From a virus, in the IMG/VR virus record IMGVR_UViG_3300022698_000050, positions 1 through 36,523 of that record: DNA of 36,523 nucleotides. One strand, written 5' to 3'. Of this stretch, positions 989 to 35,715 are shown piece after piece (the stretch's first letter is position 1; each line of letters opens with the position of its first letter). The translations under genes and the position numbers were made by a program. The notes under the pieces are model-generated. The model was not told where the DNA came from. It did no database searches and worked only from the letters and a program-made list of their open reading frames with translations.

Positions 989-2317
989 CTATTTCCATTT
1001 AGTAGTTGGAGTGATGACTGCTTTGTCAACTCTATATTTGAGTGGTAAGAGGATTCGGATTAAGTTTGATATCTCATCTTCGATGTTCTCTGTTGGGACA
1101 TATCCTAAGGCGGTTAACTTGTCACGGCTAGGTGAGTAGTGATGATCTTCAACTTCGTACCTAGGATTGTTTATTTCTTCGACAAACACATTAAGTTTGT
1201 GATCATTGACTGCTTTATCATAGACCATGAAGGCCAAGTCTTTTATTCGATAGACTGATTCGAACTGATTAAATGTCCTATATTCGCCCTTCTCAGGTGG
1301 ATTGTCTATAGCTATTTGTAAGCATTGAAGTGAATCTTTGAGTGGCAAGAACGAACGGGCCTGTCTTCCGCCACCATAGATTGACAATGGATAGTTGCAT
1401 ATTGCTTGGACACAGAATCTATTGATTGCAGTTCCGAAGTATTGGTCATAGTCGAAGCGAGTAATTGTTATGTCATCTGTGTTTTCAGTATTAAGACCGA
1501 ACACTACACCTTGCATTATATCAGTGGAACGCAAGCCCCAGTTGCGGCAAGCAAAGTCTATGTTGTAAGTGTCTTGGACTTTGCTGACGTGATAGAATGA
1601 ACCAGGCTGACGAGGGAATAGGAGACCGGCCATAGGACAGGTTGGATTTTCTAATTGCTCATGAGGAGAATGACTATCTATGGAATGATAGATGCAATCT
1701 TTCTTCAGGCACATCTTAGGAATGTCCCCTTCAGGTATGTCACAGTTAGGTGTACCATACTCACCCATCGTACCGAGTTTAATCAAGTGTGCATCAGGAC
1801 AGTTTTCATACATAGCCCAGAGTAAAGCTAACGTTCCGCAGACGTTGTTAAGTTGAGTCTGCAAAGATTCTCTGGCACTCTTCATTGACCAAGGAGCTGA
1901 CGGCTGTTCGGCCAAATGAACTATGGTATCAGGCTTGAGGAATTTAAGTACGCGGTTTAATAGATAGTAATCATGTAGGTTGAAACAAGCAACTGCGTCT
2001 ATGAAATTAGAATGTGATCTGAGGTAACGTTCTCTTTCTGTAAAGCCTTTGATTGGAGTCAGGGATTGGGTTATCTTTCTGCGGAATAAGTTGTCTAGCC
2101 CACACACTTCATAATTGTTAGAGCTGTTTAATAGCTTGGCTGCAAGTGACCAACCTATGTAGCCGTCGATTCCTAAGATTAAAACTCGATGCTTCTTTTG
2201 CTCTTTTAATTGTGCCATTCCAGGGTTTACCTTTTCTCCACAATAAATACAGCACATATTTTTATCTACTTGAATTGCCTCTCCTGGGTAGCTTATATGA
2301 CAGTGATTGCAAGTCAT
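989..2317 (-). CDS. UDP-sulfoquinovose synthase-like NAD-dependent epimerase/dehydratase with N-terminal zinc ribbon
   Basis: A 442-residue protein. The start at 2317 is preferred over 2332 because AAAGGA sits 6 nt upstream. Residues 3-26 hold a CxxC...CxxC zinc ribbon not found in standard family members. From residue 44 the sequence is an extended short-chain dehydrogenase: GIDGYIG (49-55) is the NAD-binding turn. HLAEQPSAPWSM, KLGTMGEYGTP (Thr183, Glu186) and FYHVSK (Tyr242, Lys246) match the diagnostic motifs of SQD1/SqdB, as do RFDYD..FGTA.NRFCVQA and NPR.E.E.H.Y. The known family reaction joins sulfite to UDP-glucose to give UDP-sulfoquinovose, used for sulfolipid or, in Sulfolobus (Agl3), for glycoprotein glycans. 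In a phage it more plausibly supplies a sugar for virion or cell-surface modification (inference). Substrate specificity is not provable from sequence. Confidence 0.85.
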   Translation of the reverse strand: MTCNHCHISYPGEAIQVDKNMCCIYCGEKVNPGMAQLKEQKKHRVLILGIDGYIGWSLAAKLLNSSNNYEVCGLDNLFRRKITQSLTPIKGFTERERYLRSHSNFIDAVACFNLHDYYLLNRVLKFLKPDTIVHLAEQPSAPWSMKSARESLQTQLNNVCGTLALLWAMYENCPDAHLIKLGTMGEYGTPNCDIPEGDIPKMCLKKDCIYHSIDSHSPHEQLENPTCPMAGLLFPRQPGSFYHVSKVQDTYNIDFACRNWGLRSTDIMQGVVFGLNTENTDDITITRFDYDQYFGTAINRFCVQAICNYPLSIYGGGRQARSFLPLKDSLQCLQIAIDNPPEKGEYRTFNQFESVYRIKDLAFMVYDKAVNDHKLNVFVEEINNPRYEVEDHHYSPSRDKLTALGYVPTENIEDEISNLIRILLPLKYRVDKAVITPTTKWK

Positions 2318-2335
2318 TTTAGATCCTTTCATAGA

Positions 2336-2987: not shown

Positions 2988-3404
2988 TTATTTAGGCATT
3001 ACGTATTTCTTGACCGTGTTGCTATCGCCGTACTGATCACTCTTGCGAATGCCAAGAATGACCCATCCCTCGAGTCCTGGAAGGTCGTCTTCCCAGGAGA
3101 ACGGCCGAGAAATATCAAGACCGAATGCCTGAGTAAATTGCTTGAAGCTAAACAGAGAACGCTGAAAGGATTTAGCGTCAAGCTTGGTTTTATCCAGCTC
3201 CCACATGAAGTCGGAGAACTCAATCACCATAGGATCATCAGGTACATCGAAGACTACTGAGTGCCACACGCAGTCGTTCTTGTCACTGACGCCGCTATTA
3301 ACTTTGATAATGCGGGCCTTGACTTCTGTTCCGGCCGGAAGGATTTTAGGTTCTGGTGCGTCCTTAATCTCATTTTCTAGTTCGCTGTAGTCGCTAAGAG
3401 TCAT
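2988..3404 (-). CDS. DUF669-like phage protein (replication/recombination accessory)
   Basis: From the ATG at 3404 (AAAGGAGC with 8-9 nt spacing) the product is 138 residues. KILPAGTEVKARIIKV and the following beta-rich region resemble DUF669-type phage proteins, which are usually found beside Sak4/RecA-like ATPases, as here two genes away. They are thought to bind single-stranded DNA or assist recombination, but this member's identity is tentative. The frame stays open upstream to an ATG at 3518, which lies only 2 nt after AAGGAGG. That would add a 38-residue helical N-terminus (FEKWVAFCNSNRKQPQLKE), so the longer start is a real alternative. Confidence 0.6.
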   Translation of the reverse strand: MTLSDYSELENEIKDAPEPKILPAGTEVKARIIKVNSGVSDKNDCVWHSVVFDVPDDPMVIEFSDFMWELDKTKLDAKSFQRSLFSFKQFTQAFGLDISRPFSWEDDLPGLEGWVILGIRKSDQYGDSNTVKKYVMPK

Positions 3405-3525
3405 TTTCAAAAGCTCCTTTAATTGAGGTTGTTTACGATTGGAGTTGCAGAATGCAACCCACTTTTCAAAACTCATTCCCTTGTAGTACATTAACATTGC
3501 TTTGGTAATTCCAGGCATCACCTCC

Positions 3526-3918
3526 TTAATCAATCTCCTGATGAATAGTTTCGTCAATCAGAAGTGGTTCATCACTAATTGAATCATCAGGATTTATCCA
3601 CTTCTTACGCTTGACTTGGAAAGTGGTACGTTGACGCTTACCGTCGCATTCAGTGAATCCATCTTTTTCCTGAATGTCTGTTTTTTCTTCCTCAATGAGG
3701 ATAGAAGCATCACGGAAGCTTATAACATCAGTGAAGATAGCTCTTTGTTTATTATCAGCTTCGTAGAATCTCAAAGCCATAGGCATCTTGAGAGTTCTAC
3801 CAGATGTTGAATTAGATCCTCTTGCAGCAGGACCGAAAGTTACTTTCCATTCTTCAGGAACAGTAACACGAACACGAGTTTTGTCTTCCTTCTCAATGAT
3901 GTAAGTTTTGTTAGACAT
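3526..3918 (-). CDS. hypothetical phage protein in recombination cluster
   Basis: A 130-residue protein of unknown family. It starts with a short beta segment (YIIEKEDKTRVRVTVPEEWKV), has a Gly/Ser linker near residues 31-42 and a central acidic stretch (EEEKTDIQEKDG). The C-terminal part is charged. AGGAGG is ideally placed before the ATG. It lies 9 nt downstream of the Sak4-like ATPase gene and just ahead of the DUF669-like gene, so a role in DNA replication or recombination is likely by context only. Confidence 0.55.
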   Translation of the reverse strand: MSNKTYIIEKEDKTRVRVTVPEEWKVTFGPAARGSNSTSGRTLKMPMALRFYEADNKQRAIFTDVISFRDASILIEEEKTDIQEKDGFTECDGKRQRTTFQVKRKKWINPDDSISDEPLLIDETIHQEID

Positions 3919-16740: not shown

Positions 16741-17583
16741 ATGCTAAAGCCTATTGACATATTAGTCACTGGTGGCGCAGGGTTTATAGGTACTAATTTA
16801 CTAGAAACTCTTTGCCAAGGTAACTTTGAATTAGTATCTGTGGACTTGTATGAAAGCACATCTGTTAAACCTCTAAATATTGAACGAGTAGTGCTTGATG
16901 TAGCTATTTTAGTACCTCGAATTAACACTAAAAAAATAGTTCATTTAGCATCTGAAACAAATATTAGGGATTCAATAAGCAATCCACGAAAAGTATTCGA
17001 CCGCAACACTATGTCAATGCTTAATGTACTAGAATTAATACGTAAAGACTATGCAGATTCCCTAGTTTTTACCTCTTCAGCTAGCGCTCAAGAAGCACTT
17101 TCGCCTTATTTGGCTTCAAAAGTTGCATGTGAAGCGCTTTGTAAATCTTACTCTATATCTTACAACCTAGACATTAAGGTTTTAAAGTTGTCAAGTGTCT
17201 ATGGCCCTCACTCTATACACAAAAAGAGTGTAATTGCTCGCTTTATAAAGGCATGTTTTAACTATGAACCACTAATAATCTACGGGTCAGGCGCTCAAGC
17301 ACGTGATTTTATCTATGTTGACGACGTAGTCGATGCAATCTTGGATGACTACGAAGGTTTTGTGTCTACAGGAACTTTAACCACAGTTAAAACTTTAGCA
17401 GAAATGGTTAGTGAGCTATCATTAAAGTATTTAAACTACTCACCTGCAATAAAGCATGATAATCCTGTACTTGGAGAGGTTATTAATCCTACCCTTCACA
17501 CTGATTTTGAAGCTAAAACTGACCTATATAAAGGACTTGACTTAACTTTCCAATGGTATAGGAGCAATTATGCAACTAAATAA
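16741..17583 (+). CDS. NAD-dependent nucleotide-sugar epimerase/dehydratase
   Basis: A 280-residue extended short-chain dehydrogenase. TGGAGFIG (10-17) binds NAD. HLASETN (68-74), Ser112-114 and Tyr123-x3-Lys127 (YLASK) supply the active site. VYGP (153-156) and GSGAQARDFIYVDD (182-195) are standard for GalE/WbpP-like UDP-sugar epimerases. It is slightly shorter than the usual 310-340. It starts 1 nt after the endolysin stop and overlaps the methyltransferase gene by 14 nt. A likely role is making the activated sugar, perhaps UDP-GalNAc or UDP-Gal, used by the glycosyltransferase encoded 0.8 kb downstream (inference). Confidence 0.8.
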   Translation: MLKPIDILVTGGAGFIGTNLLETLCQGNFELVSVDLYESTSVKPLNIERVVLDVAILVPRINTKKIVHLASETNIRDSISNPRKVFDRNTMSMLNVLELIRKDYADSLVFTSSASAQEALSPYLASKVACEALCKSYSISYNLDIKVLKLSSVYGPHSIHKKSVIARFIKACFNYEPLIIYGSGAQARDFIYVDDVVDAILDDYEGFVSTGTLTTVKTLAEMVSELSLKYLNYSPAIKHDNPVLGEVINPTLHTDFEAKTDLYKGLDLTFQWYRSNYATK

Positions 17584-18208
17584 CTGGAATAAAGAAGAAG
17601 TTGACAGGGCCGAGACTATTTGGGGAGGCAAAGTTCCTCCTTACATCGACGACATGTTTGAGTTTGCTGTGAAAGGCATGTCAAGTTGGCTTGACTTAGG
17701 TTGTGGATTCGGAAGATTTTTAAATTATTTAACGGACTGTACAACCGATCCAGATTACATCGGCTATGACTCTTCTCCAGCCATGTGTAAGCGCATCAAA
17801 GACAAATTCCCACACTACTCACCGCGCATCTTTCAGCGGCCAATCACTACAAAATTTTCAGTAAACCAAGACTCCATCATATGCAGTGCTGTCTTAATCC
17901 ATATTACCTTAAAAGAACAGGATCAGGTTCTAAGTGCTATAAAAACCGCTAATCCTAAAAAAGCTACCTTCGACATTAACTCACCATCTGAGCAATGGCT
18001 TCTATCCGGCAAACACTTCGAGCGCCGAGTAAAAGGTGAGAACAATGTCTTCAGAATGACCTGGCAATCACACTATATTTTTACTAGAAAAGTAATAAAG
18101 CTATTCACTAATCACTCAATAACTACTAAATACTACCCTCTAAAGTTCAATCCAACTAGATACAGGGTATGCTATTTTTTGGAACGCTATGACAATACGG
18201 AAGCATGA
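17570..18208 (+). CDS. SAM-dependent methyltransferase
   Basis: A 212-residue class I methyltransferase. Motif I is LDLGCGFGR (41-49). An acidic Asp67 in YIGYDSSPAM binds the SAM ribose. A later IICSAVLIHI strand matches motif post-I/IV. The position in the sugar cassette suggests O- or N-methylation of a sugar, but DNA or protein substrates are not excluded. AGGAGCAATT precedes the ATG. Palindromic repeat copy 7 lies inside the coding sequence just after motif I and is translated as FLNYLTD. Confidence 0.7.
   Translation: MQLNNWNKEEVDRAETIWGGKVPPYIDDMFEFAVKGMSSWLDLGCGFGRFLNYLTDCTTDPDYIGYDSSPAMCKRIKDKFPHYSPRIFQRPITTKFSVNQDSIICSAVLIHITLKEQDQVLSAIKTANPKKATFDINSPSEQWLLSGKHFERRVKGENNVFRMTWQSHYIFTRKVIKLFTNHSITTKYYPLKFNPTRYRVCYFLERYDNTEA
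17715..17737. repeat. palindromic repeat, copy 7 (inside methyltransferase gene)
   Basis: Core TTAAATTATTTAA with the right half-site GTCCGTTAAAT intact and the left half diverged. It is translated in frame. Confidence 0.6.
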
Positions 18209-18427: not shown

Positions 18428-19429
18428 TTGAAGCTATCAATTATCATCTCTAATCGCAATGACATAGTAATGCTCAATGTCACTTTGAACAATGCAATAG
18501 AAATGATGAAGACTGTAAAAGGTGATTGTGAAATAGTTATATGCGACAATAGTGATCCTAAATTCTATGAGCTAATGCCTATTGCTTATCCAGTAGGTTG
18601 GCTGAAGGAAGGTCTAGTCCGTGTTATCAGACAAGAACAACCAGGCTTTACAACTGCTAGGATGGCCGCAGCGGAAGCGGCTAAAGGCGAGTATATCTTC
18701 TGTGTGGATTCTCACGTTCTGTTTGGCCTTAACACTTTGCGTGATTCTATTGATTTCATGGAGCGTCATAGTGACAACGAGAATCTCGGCTTTGGCCATC
18801 CCCCTATTAGATGGGCTCATCAAGGTCCAGCTGCAATAAAACATACTTTGAAAGTAAGCGACAAAGGCCTCCCTAATGGAGGATGGGATAGGGCTTATAA
18901 TACTGAACGTAGAATGTATTGGAAGTTTATGCCATGGATTTGTCGACGTGAGTGGTTCCTTAACACACTCCAAGGCTATGGCACTCACGCTTGGCATCGC
19001 ATGTCTTGGGGCGGTGCTGAGGAAATGATGCAAGTTAAGTCCCTAATGCTTGGCTACGAGAATTGGGCGATACCTACTGATCCAGTAGCTCACATAGGGC
19101 CTTACACTCCAGAGGTAATTAAAACTGGCCAATACAAGTATCGAACCTATGGAGCGCATGGTAACTTTCCACACGGCTTTGGAGTCCTCTGTGCTCGATA
19201 CATAGTAGCCGGCCCTGACCTAGGTTATCGATTGTCTAAGTCAGCCGAAGCACAATTCACAGCTCGGCACAAGATTAAGATTGACGACTATTGGGACAAA
19301 GTAGCTGAGGTATCAAAGAAAGAATTCAACTGGTTAAACGAGCGTAAGAAGTACAGTTACCTAGAACTCATTAATGAAAAGCCTTGGGAACAGGATGATA
19401 CAAGAGCCTCAACAGACGCTGCAGCGTGA
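18428..19429 (+). CDS. GT-A glycosyltransferase with polypeptide-GalNAc-transferase-like motifs
   Basis: A 333-residue glycosyltransferase with a TTG start, 8 nt after AGGAGG. The GT-A Rossmann start (KLSIIISNRND, residues 2-12) and ICDNSD (38-43) bind the nucleotide. Instead of the common DxD, the metal site reads DSH (94-96). A later block gives WGGAEE (194-199), GYENWAIPT (209-217) and AHIG (221-224). DxH, WGGE and a downstream His are the signature layout of GT27 polypeptide GalNAc-transferases, although some GT2 enzymes share pieces. The gene is flanked by sugar-modifying enzymes, and the genome encodes several Thr/Pro-rich acceptor-like proteins. O-glycosylation of phage proteins is therefore a strong hypothesis; sugar and acceptor are not proven. 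Confidence 0.75.
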   Translation: MKLSIIISNRNDIVMLNVTLNNAIEMMKTVKGDCEIVICDNSDPKFYELMPIAYPVGWLKEGLVRVIRQEQPGFTTARMAAAEAAKGEYIFCVDSHVLFGLNTLRDSIDFMERHSDNENLGFGHPPIRWAHQGPAAIKHTLKVSDKGLPNGGWDRAYNTERRMYWKFMPWICRREWFLNTLQGYGTHAWHRMSWGGAEEMMQVKSLMLGYENWAIPTDPVAHIGPYTPEVIKTGQYKYRTYGAHGNFPHGFGVLCARYIVAGPDLGYRLSKSAEAQFTARHKIKIDDYWDKVAEVSKKEFNWLNERKKYSYLELINEKPWEQDDTRASTDAAA

Positions 19430-20960
19430 CCAGACATTAGATTCAATTCTGGCTCTTTGTAGTAATGATACTAGAATGGTCGCTAAGACATTCTTTCCAG
19501 AGCGCTTCTCCTTACCATTCGCCGAGAAAGTGCATGGAAAGATATTTGAACTAATCGACTCACCTCATAACAAAATAGCTATCGCCGCGCCTCGTGGTTG
19601 GGGAAAGACTTCAATCGTCGCTTTAGCTCTAATGGCTCGTTACATCCTGTTCCACCATACTAACTTCATCTGCTACATCAACAAGTCACATGATGCGGCT
19701 AGTCTACAGACTGAAAACTTAAGACGTGAACTTGTAACTAACAAGGACATTAAAAGATTCTTCGGTGACTTTCGGCATCGAGATGTTGATGCTAAGAAAG
19801 AGTTCGATGAGGTTTTTAGTAAAAAGGCGTGGGTTGCCTATGACACGCTCGTCTGGCCACGTGGAGCTGGACAACAAGTCCGCGGGGTTCTTTTCAAGAA
19901 TGACCGTCCAGGACTTATCGTCATAGATGACCTTGAAGACCCTGAGAAGATCGAGAATGATGAGATTCGTAAGGGCTGGCATCAGTGGCTGTACGCTGAC
20001 GTGATCAAAGCAGTTCCACGCCTTCATCGACATTGGAAGATAGTTTACATCGACACTCTAAAGCACGAAGACTCAACGCTTCAAAAGTTACTGGATTCAC
20101 CTGAGTGGAAAAGTGTACGGCTTGAAGCATGCGACGACAACTTTAAATCATCAGCCCCACACTTTATGTCAGATGAGGAGATTCAAAGTGAATGGCAAGA
20201 GCATGTTAACGCTGGACAAACAGACGTGTTTTTTCGCGAGCTACGAAACCTACCGATTTCCACCAAGGACTCCGCTTTTCGTCGCGAGTACTTTAACTAT
20301 TATAGCTTGCCACCTGAAAGATCAAAGACCGACAGTGATCTTTCCATCAGTGATGCAGATATACAAGTTGATACAGATATTGAAACAGTTGTATTGCTTG
20401 ATCCTGCAAAAACCGTCAAGATACACTCTGCGGAATCTGCTATTGTAGGTGTAGGCATAGACATTAATAGCGCTAGACTATACGTCAGAGACATAGTATC
20501 AGAGAAAATGTATCCTGATGAGATCTACAATGAACTCTTTGGAATGGCAATAAGACTAGATGCAAAAGTAATAGGTGTTGAAGAAACTTCGCTGAACGAG
20601 TTTATTAAGCAGCCTATAAAGAATGAAATGTTTAAGCGTGGAAAATTCTTTGAACTCGTCTGGCTAAAAACTCGAGGTGGGATGAAAAAGGAACTACGTG
20701 TTAAGGAACTAGTCCCTTATTATCGCCTTGGCTACATTTACCATAACGCTTCGTGTCAAGGAATTAATCGTCTGGAGCAACAACTCTTAATGTTTCCAAG
20801 ATCGAAGCTCTGGGATATAATGGATTGTTTTGCCTACATTATAGAAATGCTTGAGATGGGTGAAAGATATTTCAGTCCCACTGCTCCAAAAGGCGATCCT
20901 GAAGCAGAATTCAGGGAACTTGAATACGAGGAGCCTATGGAAAACTGGAGGGTGGCATGA
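19395..20960 (+). CDS. terL: terminase large subunit
   Basis: A 521-residue packaging motor from the ATG at 19395; an in-frame ATG at 19374 is the alternative. Walker A is APRGWGKT (65-72) and Walker B LIVIDDLED (174-182). The C-terminal RNase H-like nuclease shows Asp336 in LLDPAKT, an acidic residue in IGVEET (about 393) and Asp in WDIMDCFAYI (about 489). It cuts and pumps DNA into the prohead. It overlaps the glycosyltransferase gene by 35 nt and the next gene by 4 nt. Confidence 0.9.
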   Translation: MIQEPQQTLQRDQTLDSILALCSNDTRMVAKTFFPERFSLPFAEKVHGKIFELIDSPHNKIAIAAPRGWGKTSIVALALMARYILFHHTNFICYINKSHDAASLQTENLRRELVTNKDIKRFFGDFRHRDVDAKKEFDEVFSKKAWVAYDTLVWPRGAGQQVRGVLFKNDRPGLIVIDDLEDPEKIENDEIRKGWHQWLYADVIKAVPRLHRHWKIVYIDTLKHEDSTLQKLLDSPEWKSVRLEACDDNFKSSAPHFMSDEEIQSEWQEHVNAGQTDVFFRELRNLPISTKDSAFRREYFNYYSLPPERSKTDSDLSISDADIQVDTDIETVVLLDPAKTVKIHSAESAIVGVGIDINSARLYVRDIVSEKMYPDEIYNELFGMAIRLDAKVIGVEETSLNEFIKQPIKNEMFKRGKFFELVWLKTRGGMKKELRVKELVPYYRLGYIYHNASCQGINRLEQQLLMFPRSKLWDIMDCFAYIIEMLEMGERYFSPTAPKGDPEAEFRELEYEEPMENWRVA

Positions 20961-23424: not shown

Positions 23425-25218
23425 ATGTCTAACGATTTTGACACATGGAAAGACGGTGAACCTCTTGTAGGCCCAGGGAGTGATGGCTCTTTTGATACCT
23501 GGGAAGATGGGGAACCTATAGTTAGACTTGAAGAAGGTACTACAGCGGCACCAACGACTGCAGGAGGTACCACAAGTGCTCCAACTACTGCTCCTCCTAC
23601 TACGTTGGCTCCTACAACTGTTGTTCCCTCAACAGAGGCGCCAACGACAGCTGCCCCGACTACTTTAGCGCTGACAACTTTGGCTCCAACTACACTAGAG
23701 CCAACGACGTTAGCGCCTACTACTCTTGAACCTACTACGTTGGCGCCTACGACAGAAAGTCCGACTACAAGCGCTCCTACAACTATTGCACCTACTACTC
23801 TTGCACCTACAACTTTGTTAGGAGCTAATGATTTTTCTAGTTGTGTAAGATGTAGAGCTCTTTGGCAATTCGAATCTGGTGCACTACCAGATGATACACA
23901 AAGGACTAATGATCTAACAGCTAATGGTACACCAACTGCTGATACTACTAATTATAGAGAAGGCAGTCAATCTGTAACACTTGGCTTAGATCAATACTAT
24001 AAATTAGAGAATGCCAATGTAGATGGTATGCCAATGGAGTCTGGTGATACAGATAAGTTGGTAACTATCTGTGGTTGGGTTAGGTTGACAACTATTTCTG
24101 GTTGGCAGTTCTTCTTTGGTAAAAGCGATTATTGGTGGGCTAATCGGCAAGGTCTTGGTGTCGGAGCTAATAATGGAGCTGTCCATGTTCATTGGGGAAC
24201 CGGCGTCGGTGGCCAGGATTTCTCAGTTGGTAAGACACTTGTTGCTAATAGATGGTATCATATAGGTGTAAGAGCTGATGGAGTTAACAAAAGTGGTCAT
24301 ATTAGAATATGGGACGTTACATTAGGTACACTAACAACTCTTGATTTTTATCCTTTAGCTGAGATGGGGGTTGGGTCAGATAAATTTAGCCTTGGTCTTT
24401 GGGCTGATGGTTATGGTAGTGCTTACTATGGACAGGTAGATGAAGTAGTTGTTTTTGATGCTGAGTTAACTAATAATGAAATAGATGATATTAGAAATGG
24501 TCAGTATGGGGAAGTCTGCACAACACTAGCTCCAACAACTCTGGAGTCCACAACACTAGCGCCTACAACGCTTGAACCAACAACTTTAGCACCAACAACC
24601 TTAGCTGAGACGACTGTAGCACCCACAACTATATCTCCCTCAACTCCGACACCGAGTAGTGCTCCCCCCACTACCTTGGCTCCAACAACAGTTGCAGGGA
24701 CTACAGTCGCGCCAACTACGGCTGTTGTAACAACTGGCGCGCCTACTACTCTGGCTCCAACGACTGAGCCGTCGACTACTGTGTTGCCGACAACTGTAGC
24801 TCCAAGCACAGTTACGCCTACAACACTTGCTCCTAGCACGTTAGCGCCTACTACTGAAGCGCCGACGACTTTAGAACCAACAACTGAATCGCCGACTACA
24901 GTATCGGTAACGACAGTAGTCCCAACAACTTTAGAGCCGACAACTGAAGAACCAACAACAGTAGCTCCGACTACACTAGCTCCAACAACTATTGCACCAA
25001 CAACAGTTTTACCAACAACTTTAGCACCAACGACTGTAGGGCCATCTACAGTACCACCAACGACTTTGGCACCAACTACTTATGGCCCTTACGTCTGCAC
25101 ACATGAGTTACTATCTACAATTGTAGATGAAGATGAGTTACTATCTATAGTTGTAGGTGAAGGTGAATTGATGTCAACTGTAGTAGATGAAGATGAACTC
25201 TTATCTATAATTTGCTAG
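23425..25218 (+). CDS. mucin-like Thr/Pro-rich protein with LamG domain
   Basis: A 597-residue protein. Two FDTWxDGEPxV repeats (5-15, 23-33) are followed by a Thr/Pro/Ala tract (about 39-131). Then comes a LamG/concanavalin-like jelly-roll (about 137-362: LWQFESGALPDD, ICGWVRLT, GQVDEVVVFDAELT), a second longer tract (about 366-552), and four copies of an acidic ELLS(T/I)xV repeat (558-596). There is no signal peptide, so it is probably virion attached. LamG folds bind sugars. The tracts resemble mucin acceptor sequences. Synonymous codons vary along the tracts, pointing to protein-level conservation. Probably an adhesin or fibre. Confidence 0.7.
   Translation: MSNDFDTWKDGEPLVGPGSDGSFDTWEDGEPIVRLEEGTTAAPTTAGGTTSAPTTAPPTTLAPTTVVPSTEAPTTAAPTTLALTTLAPTTLEPTTLAPTTLEPTTLAPTTESPTTSAPTTIAPTTLAPTTLLGANDFSSCVRCRALWQFESGALPDDTQRTNDLTANGTPTADTTNYREGSQSVTLGLDQYYKLENANVDGMPMESGDTDKLVTICGWVRLTTISGWQFFFGKSDYWWANRQGLGVGANNGAVHVHWGTGVGGQDFSVGKTLVANRWYHIGVRADGVNKSGHIRIWDVTLGTLTTLDFYPLAEMGVGSDKFSLGLWADGYGSAYYGQVDEVVVFDAELTNNEIDDIRNGQYGEVCTTLAPTTLESTTLAPTTLEPTTLAPTTLAETTVAPTTISPSTPTPSSAPPTTLAPTTVAGTTVAPTTAVVTTGAPTTLAPTTEPSTTVLPTTVAPSTVTPTTLAPSTLAPTTEAPTTLEPTTESPTTVSVTTVVPTTLEPTTEEPTTVAPTTLAPTTIAPTTVLPTTLAPTTVGPSTVPPTTLAPTTYGPYVCTHELLSTIVDEDELLSIVVGEGELMSTVVDEDELLSIIC
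23536..23820 (+). repeat. APTT-type coding repeat, tract 1
   Basis: About 24 imperfect (T/A)PTT(x) units read in frame. Codon choice differs between units, so this is not a recent DNA expansion. Confidence 0.8.
24520..25080 (+). repeat. APTT-type coding repeat, tract 2
   Basis: About 45 imperfect four- to five-residue units rich in Thr, Pro and Ala, with mixed synonymous codons. Confidence 0.8.
25100..25215 (+). repeat. four ~30-bp tandem coding repeats
   Basis: The C-terminal units DEDELLSIVV-like are repeated four times with few changes at protein level. Confidence 0.7.
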
Positions 25219-25576: not shown

Positions 25577-27529
25577 ATGCCTTACATAGTACACGGTGAT
25601 CCTTCATCAGGTAGAGAAAATCAGTACGAGAAGTACAACTATGACTACGACTATCCAGATGGGCTTAATTTAAAGCCTGGTTCTGAGTTGCACAAGAAAC
25701 TTGTGTCAAGAATCTGGATACGTGCTAATGAGTCACGTACTGAAATGTCCAAGCGATTTGCATCTTGGCGTGAAATAGACAGAATATTAACTGTCTATAT
25801 TCTTACTAGCGATAAGGAAAAGGCTATTAAAAAGAAAGACTCTAGAAGGCCTATATCAATAGTATTTCCTTATACCTATTCTATGCTTGAGGCATTGCTA
25901 ACTTATATGTCAATGGCTTTCTTTCAAGACCCTATATTCCAATATGAGGGTGTTGAAGATGATGATACCATAGGTGCAATGTTGCTTGAACTTTTGATTA
26001 GAGTCCAGTGCATTAAAACTAAAGTTCCTCTTGCACTTCACACTATGTTCCGTGACTCTTTCGCATACGGAATAGGACCTGTATTACCTGGGTGGAAAAC
26101 TATTTGGGGCAAGAAACCTATAAAATCTTCAGTCGTTACTGAAGGTGAATTAGGTTCATCCTCTGCACAGTATACTAATTTTATAACTGATAAACTATTC
26201 TCAGGTAACGACTTAAGTAACATCGACCCTTATATGTGGCTACCTGATGTGTCTGTCTCTAGCGTCCACATTCAAGATGGTGAATTCGTAGGCTGGGTCG
26301 AACGAGATAATTATATGAACTTGCTATCTGAAGAACAGTCTGATGATACTATCTTCAATATGAAATATGTAAAGCATGCTAAAGATAGGCGCTCACAACT
26401 ATCACGTGATCAAAGTGATAGGGAAAAGAAGCAGGGCAAAAGCTCTAAAGAATTAAGGGGTGGTACAGAATCAACCAACCCTGTTGATACCATTAAGATG
26501 TACATTAAACTAATTCCAAAAGACTGGAAACTTGGTAATAGTGAGTATCCTGAAAAGTGGTTTTTTGCTCTAACATCTGATAGCGTAATCACTAGCTGTC
26601 ATAGAGCAGAACACAATCACGGAATGTTTCCAGCTGCTGTCGCATCCCCTGAGTTTGACGGATATTCAGCTACACCTATGGGAAGACTGGAAATACTTTA
26701 TGGTCTACAAAATACTCTTGATTTTCTTTTTAATAGCCATATTGCTAATGTTCGCAAATCTATTAACGACATGCTTGTTGTTGATCCTTATTTGGTAAAT
26801 ATAGCTGACTTAGAAGACCCTAAACCTGGTAAGTTAATTAGGTTGCGGCGACCTGCTTGGGGACACGGAGTTGATAAGGTTGTACAGCAACTAGCAGTCC
26901 AAGACATCACTCGAGCTAACATTGGTGATAGTGCTTATATCACTCAGTGGATGGATCGTATCTCAGGCGCTGACCAGTCGATGCAAGGTGCACTACGTCA
27001 AGGCGGACCTGAGCGATTAACTAAAGGTGAATTTCAAGGTACTCGTGGCTCAGCTATCAGCCGCTTACAGCGACTAGCAATGCTTGTTGGGATGCAAGTA
27101 ATGCAAGATGTAGGTTCAATGTTTGCTGTACATGCTCAGCAATATATGGATAGAACAGAGTCAGTAAGAATAACTGGACGTTACGAAGAACAACTCTTAG
27201 CTCAATTTGGTAAGAGACGAATCCCAGTATCTCCTAATGATCTGTCAATAAACTATGATGTGCTTGTAAGGGATGGCTCAATACCTGGAGGTAACTTCTC
27301 TGAGTCATGGATTACTTTATTCAACATCATAGCGGGTACACCTGAATTGCATCAACAGTTTGATATATTTAGAATCTTCACCTATATAGCACAGCAAATG
27401 GGTGCTAAGAATGTAGAGGATTTCAAACGACAGGCTTCTCAAACTAATGTCCAACAGATGCCTGATGAACAGGTGATGAACCAAGTTGATAGAGGAAACT
27501 TAGTACCATTAGGAGGTGGCGCTCAGTGA
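25577..27529 (+). CDS. portal protein
   Basis: A 650-residue protein placed after TerL and before the scaffold and capsid genes, the expected order. Features are the helix-rich N-terminus (KKLVSRIWIRANESRTEMSKRF), the central TMFRDSFAYGIGPVLPGWK stretch, and the helical ISRLQRLAMLVGMQVMQDVGS region typical of podovirus-type portals. The portal forms the dodecameric DNA gate at one capsid vertex. GAGG precedes the ATG, and the next gene starts with GTG inside its stop (GTGA). Confidence rests on size, order and general pattern. Confidence 0.75.
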   Translation: MPYIVHGDPSSGRENQYEKYNYDYDYPDGLNLKPGSELHKKLVSRIWIRANESRTEMSKRFASWREIDRILTVYILTSDKEKAIKKKDSRRPISIVFPYTYSMLEALLTYMSMAFFQDPIFQYEGVEDDDTIGAMLLELLIRVQCIKTKVPLALHTMFRDSFAYGIGPVLPGWKTIWGKKPIKSSVVTEGELGSSSAQYTNFITDKLFSGNDLSNIDPYMWLPDVSVSSVHIQDGEFVGWVERDNYMNLLSEEQSDDTIFNMKYVKHAKDRRSQLSRDQSDREKKQGKSSKELRGGTESTNPVDTIKMYIKLIPKDWKLGNSEYPEKWFFALTSDSVITSCHRAEHNHGMFPAAVASPEFDGYSATPMGRLEILYGLQNTLDFLFNSHIANVRKSINDMLVVDPYLVNIADLEDPKPGKLIRLRRPAWGHGVDKVVQQLAVQDITRANIGDSAYITQWMDRISGADQSMQGALRQGGPERLTKGEFQGTRGSAISRLQRLAMLVGMQVMQDVGSMFAVHAQQYMDRTESVRITGRYEEQLLAQFGKRRIPVSPNDLSINYDVLVRDGSIPGGNFSESWITLFNIIAGTPELHQQFDIFRIFTYIAQQMGAKNVEDFKRQASQTNVQQMPDEQVMNQVDRGNLVPLGGGAQ

Positions 27530-28699: not shown

Positions 28700-29140
28700 A
28701 TGAGTCTTGAAGACAGATTTGCTCAGCATGATAAGATCGTGGTTGACAAGTACCATGATCCTGCAGCTGACTACCAAATGACAGTGCGTGACTATGTGAT
28801 GCGTCCTGACTCGAGTGAAGGAGCTATCACTCTCACCTTGCCACCTGTGGCGGAAGCTAAAGGTCGATGGTACTCGATCATTTCTCGAGGTGGACCTGGA
28901 GTTACAATCCAGGACTATGACAATGATAGTGAGTGTTGGCTTGGTGACATTGTGCTTAATAACATCTGTGACCGTTGCCTGCTTTACAGTGATGGCTTGG
29001 CATGGCATGTTATGGCTAGTCCTGGTGAATGGCCTGGGTTTGATACTACTAAAGCACCTGGAACCACCACTCCGCCTAGTACTGCTGCCCCGACCACTGT
29101 AGCTTCAACCACTGTGGCTCCGACTACTGAGCAGGCTTAA
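28700..29140 (+). CDS. capsid decoration-like protein with mucin-like tail
   Basis: A 146-residue protein directly upstream of the capsid gene, the usual place for decoration proteins. Residues 1-112 form a compact beta-rich domain (EGAITLTLPPVAEAK, RWYSIISRGG, VTIQDYDNDSECWLGDIV, LLYSDGLAWHVM). Residues 115-144 are a Thr/Pro tail (TTTPPSTAAPTTVAS, TTVAPTTEQA). If it coats the capsid, the tail would be exposed and available for glycosylation. AGGAGG is ideally placed. The assignment as decoration rests on position and fold impression. Confidence 0.6.
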   Translation: MSLEDRFAQHDKIVVDKYHDPAADYQMTVRDYVMRPDSSEGAITLTLPPVAEAKGRWYSIISRGGPGVTIQDYDNDSECWLGDIVLNNICDRCLLYSDGLAWHVMASPGEWPGFDTTKAPGTTTPPSTAAPTTVASTTVAPTTEQA

Positions 29141-29214: not shown

Positions 29215-30510
29215 ATGTTTCTTGGAATGAGAGGCACTGGCGACTGGGTCGCCAATCAACGACCTGAAAATTGGAGAGAGCAGATTCTGTATCTGTATCC
29301 TAACGGAATGGCTCCGTTGACAGCTATCCTGTCGATGATTAGTTCTGAAATGACTGATGATCCACGCTTTCATTGGTGGACTCAGGAACAGAGCTCTGTG
29401 CAGGGTGCTGTTGGTGGAATCTGGACTGATGCAGCTCAGACTACTCCTTACGTAACTGGTGGTATTGCAGGTGATACTCTGTTTGTACAAGTCACCACGA
29501 CTCTAGCTAATCGCATTAGACAGGGCCACCAAATCTTGCTTCGTGATCAGTCTGACTATGCAGTGGATGTAGTGGGTAAAATCACTAACGTTACTCGTGG
29601 TGCACTTAACTCACTGCTCGCTGTTAAACTGCTTGAAGCTGATGATAACTCGACTACTCATGATCTAAGTGATTGTGACTACTTCAAGATCATCGGTAAC
29701 ATTAATCCTGAGGGTGGCGAGATGCCTGATGCCATCGCTCTGAACCCGACTGAGGTTTACAACTACACCCAGATTTTCCGTACACCTCTGTCTATCACTC
29801 GTACGGCGAAGAAGACTCGTCTGCGAACTGGCAATCAGTATCAGAAAGCCAAATCCGAAGCGTTGGAAATGCACTCATGGGAAATGGAGCTTGCATATCT
29901 CTGGGGCATTCGCTCATCCAACATCGGAGATAATGGCAAACCTGAGCGTACCACTATGGGCGTGATTAACTTCATTCGACAGTATGCCACGGCTAATTGT
30001 GACGACTATACGTTGAATGCTACTTACTCAGGTCAGACTTGGGCGGCAGGCGGTGAGAACTGGTTGAAAGCTATGCTTGAGCAAATCTTCCGTTACGGTG
30101 CAGATTCCAAACTGTGTCTGTGTGGTTCTGGTGCACTGCTCGGAATTGATGCTTTGGCAATGGCTGGAGGTCAGGTCCAACTGCAGCCGGCTCAGAAAGT
30201 CTACGGTATGCAGATTCGTGAGTGGCTGACTCCGTTCGGCTCCATCTACATGAAGACCCATCCGCTGTTCTCTTACGATGCTACTACTCGTAATATGATG
30301 GTTATTCTGGAACCGAAAGAAATGACTTATCGCTACATCGATGACACTATGTTCTTCGGTGAGAGCGAGTCCAAGTCTCACTCTGCTGGTTATGGTCAGC
30401 GACGGATTGATGGGCTTAATGAGGAGTTCCTCACTGAGTCTGGTCTTGAATTTGGACTGCCGCAGAAATGCGCTGTCCTCAACGGTGTCGGTCTTCCTAA
30501 TGCAGTGTAG
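29215..30510 (+). CDS. major capsid protein (DUF5309-like)
   Basis: A 431-residue protein resembling the DUF5309 phage head proteins. Marks are the N-terminal MAPLTAILSMISSE, FHWWTQEQ, a central NPTEVYNYTQIFRTPLSIT, and a C-terminal VILEPKEMTYRYIDDTMFF. It forms the icosahedral shell. GC-ending codon use is higher than in neighbours, as expected for the most abundant protein. GGAGG precedes the ATG. A strong terminator follows, and palindromic repeats lie on both sides, so the gene is an isolated unit within the operon. Confidence 0.85.
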   Translation: MFLGMRGTGDWVANQRPENWREQILYLYPNGMAPLTAILSMISSEMTDDPRFHWWTQEQSSVQGAVGGIWTDAAQTTPYVTGGIAGDTLFVQVTTTLANRIRQGHQILLRDQSDYAVDVVGKITNVTRGALNSLLAVKLLEADDNSTTHDLSDCDYFKIIGNINPEGGEMPDAIALNPTEVYNYTQIFRTPLSITRTAKKTRLRTGNQYQKAKSEALEMHSWEMELAYLWGIRSSNIGDNGKPERTTMGVINFIRQYATANCDDYTLNATYSGQTWAAGGENWLKAMLEQIFRYGADSKLCLCGSGALLGIDALAMAGGQVQLQPAQKVYGMQIREWLTPFGSIYMKTHPLFSYDATTRNMMVILEPKEMTYRYIDDTMFFGESESKSHSAGYGQRRIDGLNEEFLTESGLEFGLPQKCAVLNGVGLPNAV

Positions 30511-34476: not shown

Positions 34477-35715
34477 ATGTCAACAGCACCGCCTACAACA
34501 GCTCCGCCTAGTACAGTAGCACCTACAACGGTAGCACCTACAACTTTGGCACCTACCACAGTCGCACCTACTACTGTACCTGACATTACCTTAACTGTTG
34601 ATCCAATAGAGATAATAGTAGCTCCACCTTATGCTGTTTGGCACTATTGGCCACCAGCTCCAGTCAATCCTGGATTGGACCAAGAGTATGACTTCGGAGA
34701 TATTCCAATAGAGCTTGACTTTACTGTTCTTGGAAGTCCTGGTAATGTAGGTATTGAAGTAAGTCCTATTGAAGTAGAGATTATTCCAGCTAGCGATGGA
34801 TTCACTTATGGTCGAGTAATTACTCCTGATCCAATTAACATAGTTATCTCCATACCTAGTATTGACGTCTTGCTTGATTATGAAGAATGTAACTGGGTAT
34901 GGTGGTCTAAGATTGGTGAGTTGGATTTTACCATAGATGAGAGCAATATAGCTGGAAAGCGTCCTATGGATTGGAGAGGATGTGTCTGGCATGTTGCTCG
35001 ACTTGGTGACAAGGTAGGAATCTATGGAGATAATGGAGTTAGTTTTATCAGGCCGAGCGGTATCCACTTTGGACTTGATACTATTTATCGCATAGGGCTA
35101 AAGAACAAAGGTGCTTTTGTTGATGGAGAGAAGTACCATTTCTTCATTGATAAGCTTAATCAGTTATGCCAAGTTGACAAGGCATTCAAGATTCTCGATT
35201 ACAAAGAGTTTCTGTCAACTATGAGTACCACTATTTTGTCGCTCGATGAAGAGCAAGAATTACTTTATATCACAGATGGCACTTATGGATATGTTTATAG
35301 TATTAAGGATGAAAGTTTCGGAACTGCTTCTGTGAATATAACTGGAATTGGTGCTCAGAATTCTCTACTTTATGTAACAAGTGATGGTGCAATAGATACG
35401 CCTAAGTTTGAAATCTGTACTGATATATATGACTTAGGTACACGCAAACCTAAGACAGTTCAACGAGTTGAACTTGGCACTGACGTTGGTGAGTTCTTGC
35501 ATGTGTCACTTGATTACAGAAATAACTATCGTGAAGAGTTTAAGCAGATAGGTTGGTTCATAGCTAATCACGATGGTAAAGCTTATCCTAAGTGTTATGG
35601 AGTTGAATTTCGCATTAGGGTCAAAGCATCTATTAGGGAATACTTGGAACTAGATTATATAAAAGTAAGAGGACATATTCATGGGTATTCGTACCTTGAT
35701 ACAGCAGAGGGGTAA
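34477..35715 (+). CDS. tail protein with N-terminal mucin tract and C-terminal propeller half
   Basis: A 412-residue protein. Residues 2-36 are a Thr/Pro tract (APTTVAPTTLAPTT units). About 37-140 has repeated PIEI/PINI beta segments. From about 150, NWVWWSKIGELDFT, MDWRGCVWHVARLGDKVGIYGDNGV and GLDTIYRIGLKNKGA form a distinct beta-propeller-like unit. This looks like the missing second half of the protein encoded at 31892-32392. GAGGATAGACTA precedes the ATG. Confidence 0.6.
   Translation: MSTAPPTTAPPSTVAPTTVAPTTLAPTTVAPTTVPDITLTVDPIEIIVAPPYAVWHYWPPAPVNPGLDQEYDFGDIPIELDFTVLGSPGNVGIEVSPIEVEIIPASDGFTYGRVITPDPINIVISIPSIDVLLDYEECNWVWWSKIGELDFTIDESNIAGKRPMDWRGCVWHVARLGDKVGIYGDNGVSFIRPSGIHFGLDTIYRIGLKNKGAFVDGEKYHFFIDKLNQLCQVDKAFKILDYKEFLSTMSTTILSLDEEQELLYITDGTYGYVYSIKDESFGTASVNITGIGAQNSLLYVTSDGAIDTPKFEICTDIYDLGTRKPKTVQRVELGTDVGEFLHVSLDYRNNYREEFKQIGWFIANHDGKAYPKCYGVEFRIRVKASIREYLELDYIKVRGHIHGYSYLDTAEG

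Follow-up and report, generated by a model that had tools for sequence, protein, structure and literature searches.

A phage-specific branch of the SQD1/Agl3 family

What use does a phage make of a protein of the UDP-sulfoquinovose-synthase family, and does its version of this protein use sulfite at all? The locus raising this question lies in a 36,523-base IMG/VR virus record (hereafter the window, i.e. the whole stretch of DNA analysed), whose viral nature shows in PHROGs matches to the terminase large subunit (TerL), the portal and the major head protein; its left end cuts a ParB/methylase gene, which makes the record a fragment. An intact open reading frame on the minus strand (989-2317) encodes P0001, a protein of 442 amino acids in which the original prediction had seen a phage homologue of SQD1/SqdB carrying an N-terminal CxxC/CxxC ribbon. 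The ribbon and the motifs quoted for the enzyme are all there (GTMGEYGTP, residues 182-190; FYHVSK, 241-246; NRFCVQA, 299-305), and the [ST]MG...YxxxK catalytic motif of the family is present, the alignment placing the GTMGEYGTP catalytic loop at 1748-1774 and the YxxxK catalytic pair, Y242 and K246, at 1580-1594, both on the minus strand. Residues 43-442 matched SQD1 with an E-value of 4.1e-90 in a phmmer search of PDB sequences. The NCBIfam model NF041015 matched P0001 with an E-value of 2.5e-122 and 408.5 bits, below its cut-off of 575 bits; this cut-off is not decisive, because a cyanobacterial SQD1-type protein (L122; 476 bits) and an alphaproteobacterial SqdB-like protein whose gene adjoins a glycosyltransferase gene (L004; 332 bits) score below it as well. 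The AlphaFold model of P0001 (mean pLDDT 84.9) aligned with SQD1 at a Z score of 51.7, with 43% identity and a deviation of 1.8 A across 374 residues; epimerases, the family ranking second, reached 33.6. A tree rooted on the long branches of five other SDR sugar enzymes, with Agl3 itself not among its rows, united the 38 family rows with 100/100 support and placed the 11 phage-type rows, also at 100/100, within a superclade of archaeal and bacterial relatives; an unrooted tree of 95 rows agreed. The presence of a UDP-sulfoquinovose-synthase homologue in a phage was therefore borne out by phmmer, fold prediction and the rooted tree, in which P0001 lies inside the SQD1-family clade and not among unrelated epimerases. 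Judged from sequence and model, P0001 represents a genuine branch of the SQD1/Agl3 family that is specific to phages.

Single-sequence searches of annotated phage records and of viral contigs found no relatives. An alignment query of IMG/VR retrieved at least 169 stretches encoding relatives of P0001; the best 80 of 169 were kept, and 44 of these (L009-L052) make up a phage-type family whose members have an insert with cysteines. The marks of this family are EQPSAP (with small variants), GTMGEYGTP and DIMQG, the insert ending in CPM-GL-FPR in most members. In P0001 the alignment delimits the insert to residues 200-231 (1625-1720, minus strand), with conserved C203 and C227, and another conserved cysteine, C192, lies just before it. 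Cys227 is invariant in 27 non-redundant phage-type rows, of which 26 have Cys192 and 22 have Cys203. These cysteines could possibly form a zinc site, in a region across which the AlphaFold model of P0001 is weak. Cellular relatives (the best 80 of at least 592 genome stretches) share at most 47% identity with P0001. Two further SQD1 homologues, likewise from phages (L069:3406-5598 and L071:6546-8687), carry a 334-residue intein-like insert inside the GTMGEYG/TP loop, with C at its start and GN/T at its end; inteins favour conserved sites.

The initial impression that such an enzyme is unexpected in a phage has been weakened, UDP-sulfoquinovose-synthase genes having already been published in 2020 from two Cariaco Basin viral contigs, for which a role in host N-glycosylation was proposed (PMC7785012). 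In the passages of PMC11806900 examined, sulfoquinovose appears just in a reference title. Within the open-licence literature we found no report of the phage-type subfamily, of its Arg-to-Pro change, or of the link with a glycosyltransferase and Pro-Thr-Thr (PTT) repeats described below. Relatives of P0001 are, as their sequences indicate, not a one-off: sulfosugar-synthase-like enzymes have a widespread phage-specific branch outside plants, cyanobacteria and archaea.

Proline in place of an essential arginine

Alanine mutants of Sulfolobus Agl3 at His95, Arg101, Met145, Tyr182 and Lys186 were inactive according to PMC4388408, whose primer table sets R101 in AEQ-R-SAP. Of the ten positions mutated in that work P0001 keeps nine, with the Ser found in SQD1 at one of these, and loses only R101, the aligned residue being Pro139 (1901-1903, minus strand). 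Proline stands here in P0001 and in 44/44 phage-type proteins, and arginine in SQD1, Agl3 and the aligned SqdB-like proteins. The same 44 proteins all keep His95, Met145, Glu147, Tyr148, Ser180, Tyr182 and Lys186 (Agl3 numbering), and at the Thr144 position 39 have Thr and five have Ser. Proline is common in cells too, being found at 50 of 80 genome loci (the best 80 of at least 592). Two archaeal MAGs (G066 and G071, of L089 and L101), out of eight genomes examined, have one Pro-type and one Arg-type copy each, the Pro-type copy scoring above the NCBI cut-off for UDP-sulfoquinovose synthase in both. The neighbours of cellular Pro-type genes, scanned as 54 of 95 neighbour proteins from the first 26 of the 50 Pro-type loci, were uninformative, being mostly housekeeping genes (Anaerolineae) with some epimerases.

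PAPS-reductase-family genes (PAPS_reduct, PF01507) were found in 0/29 phage records, which thus show no sign of supplying sulfite by that route. Because Arg101 is replaced by Pro and Agl3 R101A is inactive, sulfite use by the phage-type proteins is unproven; P0001 is a member of the family, but the activity of a UDP-sulfoquinovose synthase, EC 3.13.1.1, is equally unproven for it. The idea of a sulfonated-sugar enzyme thus survives the alignment of the sulfite site only in part, the essential Arg101 being missing and the other tested catalytic residues being kept. The conservation of this Arg-to-Pro change also leads us to ask whether many database-named UDP-sulfoquinovose synthases use sulfite at all.

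Origin of the N-terminal ribbon

The N-terminal zinc ribbon of P0001 occupies residues 1-33 (2219-2317, minus strand) with the pattern CxxC-x16-CxxC (C3xxC6...C23xxC26). It is in frame with the SQD1 part, and an AGGA at 2324-2327 (minus strand), 6 nt before the ATG at 2317, is a good ribosome-binding site; an alternative ATG at residue 34 would yield a ribbon-less protein but has a poorer one. A search for the same fused ribbon in other viruses came back empty, the open frame of each of the 80 best viral homologues lacking a double CxxC pair ahead of the Rossmann motif. A CxxC ribbon does occur at the start of the dCMP deaminase in 11 of the 38 deaminases encoded in related operons. When the ribbon of the window was searched against 995 operon ORFs, the sole other match was the L043 deaminase (E 2.6e-4), and a profile of seven deaminase ribbons scored the SQD1 protein of the window at E 1.8e-4 and one further ORF, less well, at 0.0056. 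These E-values are modest and position is the stronger argument: the dCMP deaminase gene, normally just upstream of the SQD1 gene, is absent from the window, and a DUF5662 gene stands in that place.

Given the deaminase-ribbon match, the missing deaminase and the lack of a ribbon in all 80 relatives, we regard the ribbon as a deletion-fusion relic, probably the gene-fusion remnant of a lost upstream dCMP deaminase, which would not be needed for catalysis. Its interpretation as a designed part of the enzyme is not supported, given the same absence from viral homologues and its resemblance to a remnant of the neighbouring deaminase. If SQD1 had instead gained a functional regulatory or partner-binding module, an intact, in-frame ribbon behind a good ribosome-binding site is what one would see; we nonetheless think this unlikely in view of the ribbon-less relatives, the single deaminase match, the absence of the deaminase from the window and a pLDDT below 50 for residues 1-36 in the AlphaFold model.

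The replication operon around SQD1

The surroundings of the gene were compared in 47 loci, i.e. 46 phage-type loci and the window, some of them near-copies and some incomplete. The usual order is exonuclease (33 loci), Sak4 (42), C2 (42), phrog_6802 (32), dCMP deaminase (38), SQD1, C4 (37), C7 (32), ParB/methylase (34), UDG-PolA (27) and primase (22), the SQD1 gene standing ahead of phrog_6802 instead in a few loci. In the window the comparison assigns, all on the minus strand, the exonuclease C6 (5223-6203), the Sak4-like recombinase C1 (3928-4749), the conserved gene C2, of no family (2988-3557), the DUF5662 protein (2380-2832), located where relatives have the phrog_6802 and dCMP deaminase genes, then, next after SQD1, the conserved gene C4 (727-1029), the conserved gene C7 (306-518) and the ParB domain of the ParB/N6-N4-methylase gene C5, cut by the record end (1-303). 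Two domain fusions were noted in this operon, that of a ParB N-terminal domain with an N6/N4 DNA methylase (C5; L013:3666-4982 and relatives, and 1-303 in the window) and that of a uracil-DNA-glycosylase domain with a family A DNA polymerase (C10; L021:11036-13552 and relatives). One SQD1-less record (G012) has an ORF that by eye resembles sugar nucleotidyltransferases between Sak4 and C2 (L254:3880-4554). In another record (G052), unlike in the main lineage, the SQD1 homologue lies between the major head protein gene and the next structural gene (L044:7998-9170); this record has two glycosyltransferase matches.

A glycosyltransferase and Pro-Thr-Thr proteins co-occur with SQD1

The remaining genes of interest are on the plus strand of the window. 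A nucleotide-sugar epimerase (16741-17583; Pfam Epimerase), found only with SQD1 among 24 phages compared, is followed by a SAM methyltransferase with the same counts (17570-18208) and by a GT-A glycosyltransferase (GT; 18428-19429), which lies about 16 kb from SQD1 and overlaps the start of TerL (19374-20960). Downstream are a structural-region protein with long, mucin-like APTTLAPTT repeats (23425-25218), the portal (25577-27529; PF23899), a protein with a Pro-Thr-Thr tail (28700-29140) adjoining the major head protein (29215-30510), and a structural-region protein with N-terminal Pro-Thr-Thr repeats (34477-35715). In nine of the ten records having both genes in one piece, the GT precedes TerL on the same strand within 5 kb; the two are separated by at most 58 bases or overlap in four records, the GT lies 1.3 to 4.9 kb before TerL in five, and it follows TerL in one.

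The model of the GT has a GT-A fold (pLDDT 64.5). A Foldseek search with this model returned GalNAc-Ts in 30 of the top 50 rows, SpsA being first; in structural alignment the Z score of GalNAc-T ties with those of many GT-A enzymes, and the profile search reached GalNAc-T only at E 1.1. The DSH, WGGAE and HIGPYT motifs of the protein are ones that we take to recall polypeptide GalNAc-transferases. The GT is no more than a candidate polypeptide GalNAc-transferase (GT27): this family recurs often among the fold hits without standing apart from the remaining GT-A enzymes.

Among 47 records examined of the 80 found by head protein, from which the shorter ones had been left out, SQD1 was present in 12. 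In the eleven SQD1-less operons read, no gene has taken the place of SQD1, unless one counts a 59-aa ORF in one of them and a 56-aa ORF in another; a twelfth region, that of G016, carries SQD1. Comparison of 13 SQD1-positive with 11 SQD1-negative records gave 9 vs 2 for the GT, 5 vs 0 for both the epimerase and the methyltransferase, 9 vs 1 for the family of the gene at 25212 and 10 vs 1 for Thr/Pro-rich ORFs, the p-values for the latter ranging from 9e-5 to 0.011 over five threshold settings. Among 46 records of at least 24 kb, the GT was found in 18/25 with and 3/21 without SQD1 (p 1.1e-4) and a PTTxxPTTxxPTT coding pattern in 15/25 and 0/21 (p 1.2e-5); for the 29 records comprising the window and those of at least 38 kb, the figures were 18/19 vs 2/10 and 13/19 vs 0/10, respectively, all these records being non-independent and some of them near-copies. 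The link of SQD1 with a glycosyltransferase and an epimerase suggested in the original prediction thus finds support in their co-occurrence across relatives.

On a core-gene tree SQD1 needs nine changes, at least eight of them on supported branches; within this one phage lineage it is an optional cassette with at least eight gains or losses. In independent pairs, PTT repeats changed the same way as SQD1 in 4.4 and the opposite way in 0.0, out of eight, and the GT in 5.7 and 0.6, respectively; phylogeny-corrected sign tests point in the same direction with a median p of 0.125, which is not significant. In the reverse test, on 40 of 80 listed PTT loci (contigs of at least 16 kb outside the lineage), SQD1 was found in 0/40 unrelated phage records, a count without positive control, and the GT in 4/40; PTT repeats therefore do not need SQD1. 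One SQD1-less relative (G010) has the GT, and one of its proteins, an 827-aa ORF (L301), bears a tail that is extremely rich in Thr.

Proposed function and alternatives

We tentatively propose, as a reading with a real though not prevailing chance of being right, that P0001 makes a C6-modified UDP-sugar which the GT-A glycosyltransferase of the phage transfers onto virion proteins. P0001 would bind UDP-glucose and NAD+, oxidise C4, remove the C6 hydroxyl and then add a nucleophile, either host-derived sulfite or another small one; the UDP-sugar so formed would be altered at C6 and probably anionic. From it the GT would pass the sugar on to virion proteins, most likely to their Thr/Pro-rich repeats. 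In favour of this proposal are the family membership of P0001 by homology, predicted fold and rooted tree, the nine Agl3 positions that it keeps, the intein-like inserts in the catalytic loop of two relatives, the location of the GT near TerL, the co-occurrence of the PTT structural proteins and the L044 SQD1 homologue in a structural module. Against it are the Pro at Arg101 together with the inactivity of R101A, corrected tests that do not fall below 0.05, the placement of SQD1 mostly with Sak4 (42/47 loci) in the replication operon and not beside the GT, the lack of PAPS-reductase genes and the existence of unrelated PTT phages without SQD1. It is tempting to speculate further that these phages are self-sufficient in making an anionic, mucin-like coat for the virion, in that a sulfosugar synthase of a new subtype, an enzyme resembling polypeptide glycosyltransferases and Pro-Thr-Thr acceptors are gained and lost together and place sulfonated sugars on virions, but we consider this fuller version rather doubtful.

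The observations on Arg101 also suit an enzyme that has been neofunctionalised, with Pro precluding sulfite addition and P0001 acting as a UDP-hexose 5,6- or 4,6-dehydratase or an epimerase that makes a neutral deoxy sugar, still for glycosylation. The invariant proline of the phage-type proteins, the archaeal genomes keeping both Pro-type and Arg-type copies as if their functions differed, and the absence of PAPS-reductase-family genes speak for this explanation, which we see as somewhat unlikely: Met145, Glu147 and the remaining catalytic residues tested are still in place, the Pro-type archaeal proteins pass the NCBI cut-off, though this gives them a name and not a tested activity, and R101A abolished Agl3 activity altogether, so that a pure dehydratase is not what one would expect from Pro by itself. 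A different target, glycans or sulfolipid of the host instead of the virion, would make SQD1 an auxiliary metabolic gene for host N-glycosylation or SQDG. This corresponds to the proposal of the 2020 report (PMC7785012), and an SQD1 gene in an early-type replication operon would suit host takeover; the reading is improbable in our judgement, since no glycosyltransferase adjoins SQD1 in the window, whereas in alphaproteobacterial relatives one follows it, and since the GT with which SQD1 co-occurs is close to TerL and the co-occurring PTT-repeat proteins belong to the structural region. Modification of phage DNA by the product is brought to mind by an operon conserved in 47 loci, with the gene lying among those for dCMP deaminase, ParB/N6-N4 methylase, UDG-polymerase and primase. 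We deem such a DNA role very improbable, as eleven SQD1-less relatives keep the operon without a replacement gene, no base-hydroxymethylating gene was noticed among the families examined, which were not searched for it specifically, and the L044 homologue sits in a structural module. Should virion glycosylation be the function, uncultured phages with their own version of SQD1, a sugar-attaching enzyme and acceptor-like virion proteins may wear an unusual sugar coat.

Comparison with known systems

P0001 shares with Arabidopsis SQD1 (PDB 1i24/1qrr/1i2b) the fold, the motifs of the NAD and UDP-glucose sites, the T/Y/K triad and GTMGEYGTP; it differs in the Pro for Arg101, in 20-odd extra residues with two conserved cysteines after DIPEG and in the N-terminal ribbon, which P0001 alone carries. 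Its likeness to Sulfolobus Agl3 lies in the mutated residues listed above and in the position of the phage clade, in one superclade with archaeal proteins that pass the NCBI model, S. acidocaldarius being among the control genomes that match it; R101 is again Pro in P0001, and this comparison is made with the Agl3 sequence itself absent from the trees. The Pro-type relatives from Anaerolineae, Desulfobacterota, Acidobacteria and archaea, which are the nearest cellular relatives among the matches listed, have E-x-P-SAP, DIMQG and IPEG in common with P0001 but are without the phage-type Cys insert. We know of no functional test of these cellular proteins. The Cariaco Basin phages of PMC7785012 comprise a Mu-like virus and a contig with a gene for a HIRAN domain, and the window has a HIRAN gene as well; they are likened to P0001 by gene name and not by sequence. 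For those phages host N-glycosylation was proposed; where the earlier guess was one of host alteration, our analysis offers a testable function, glycosylation of the virion.
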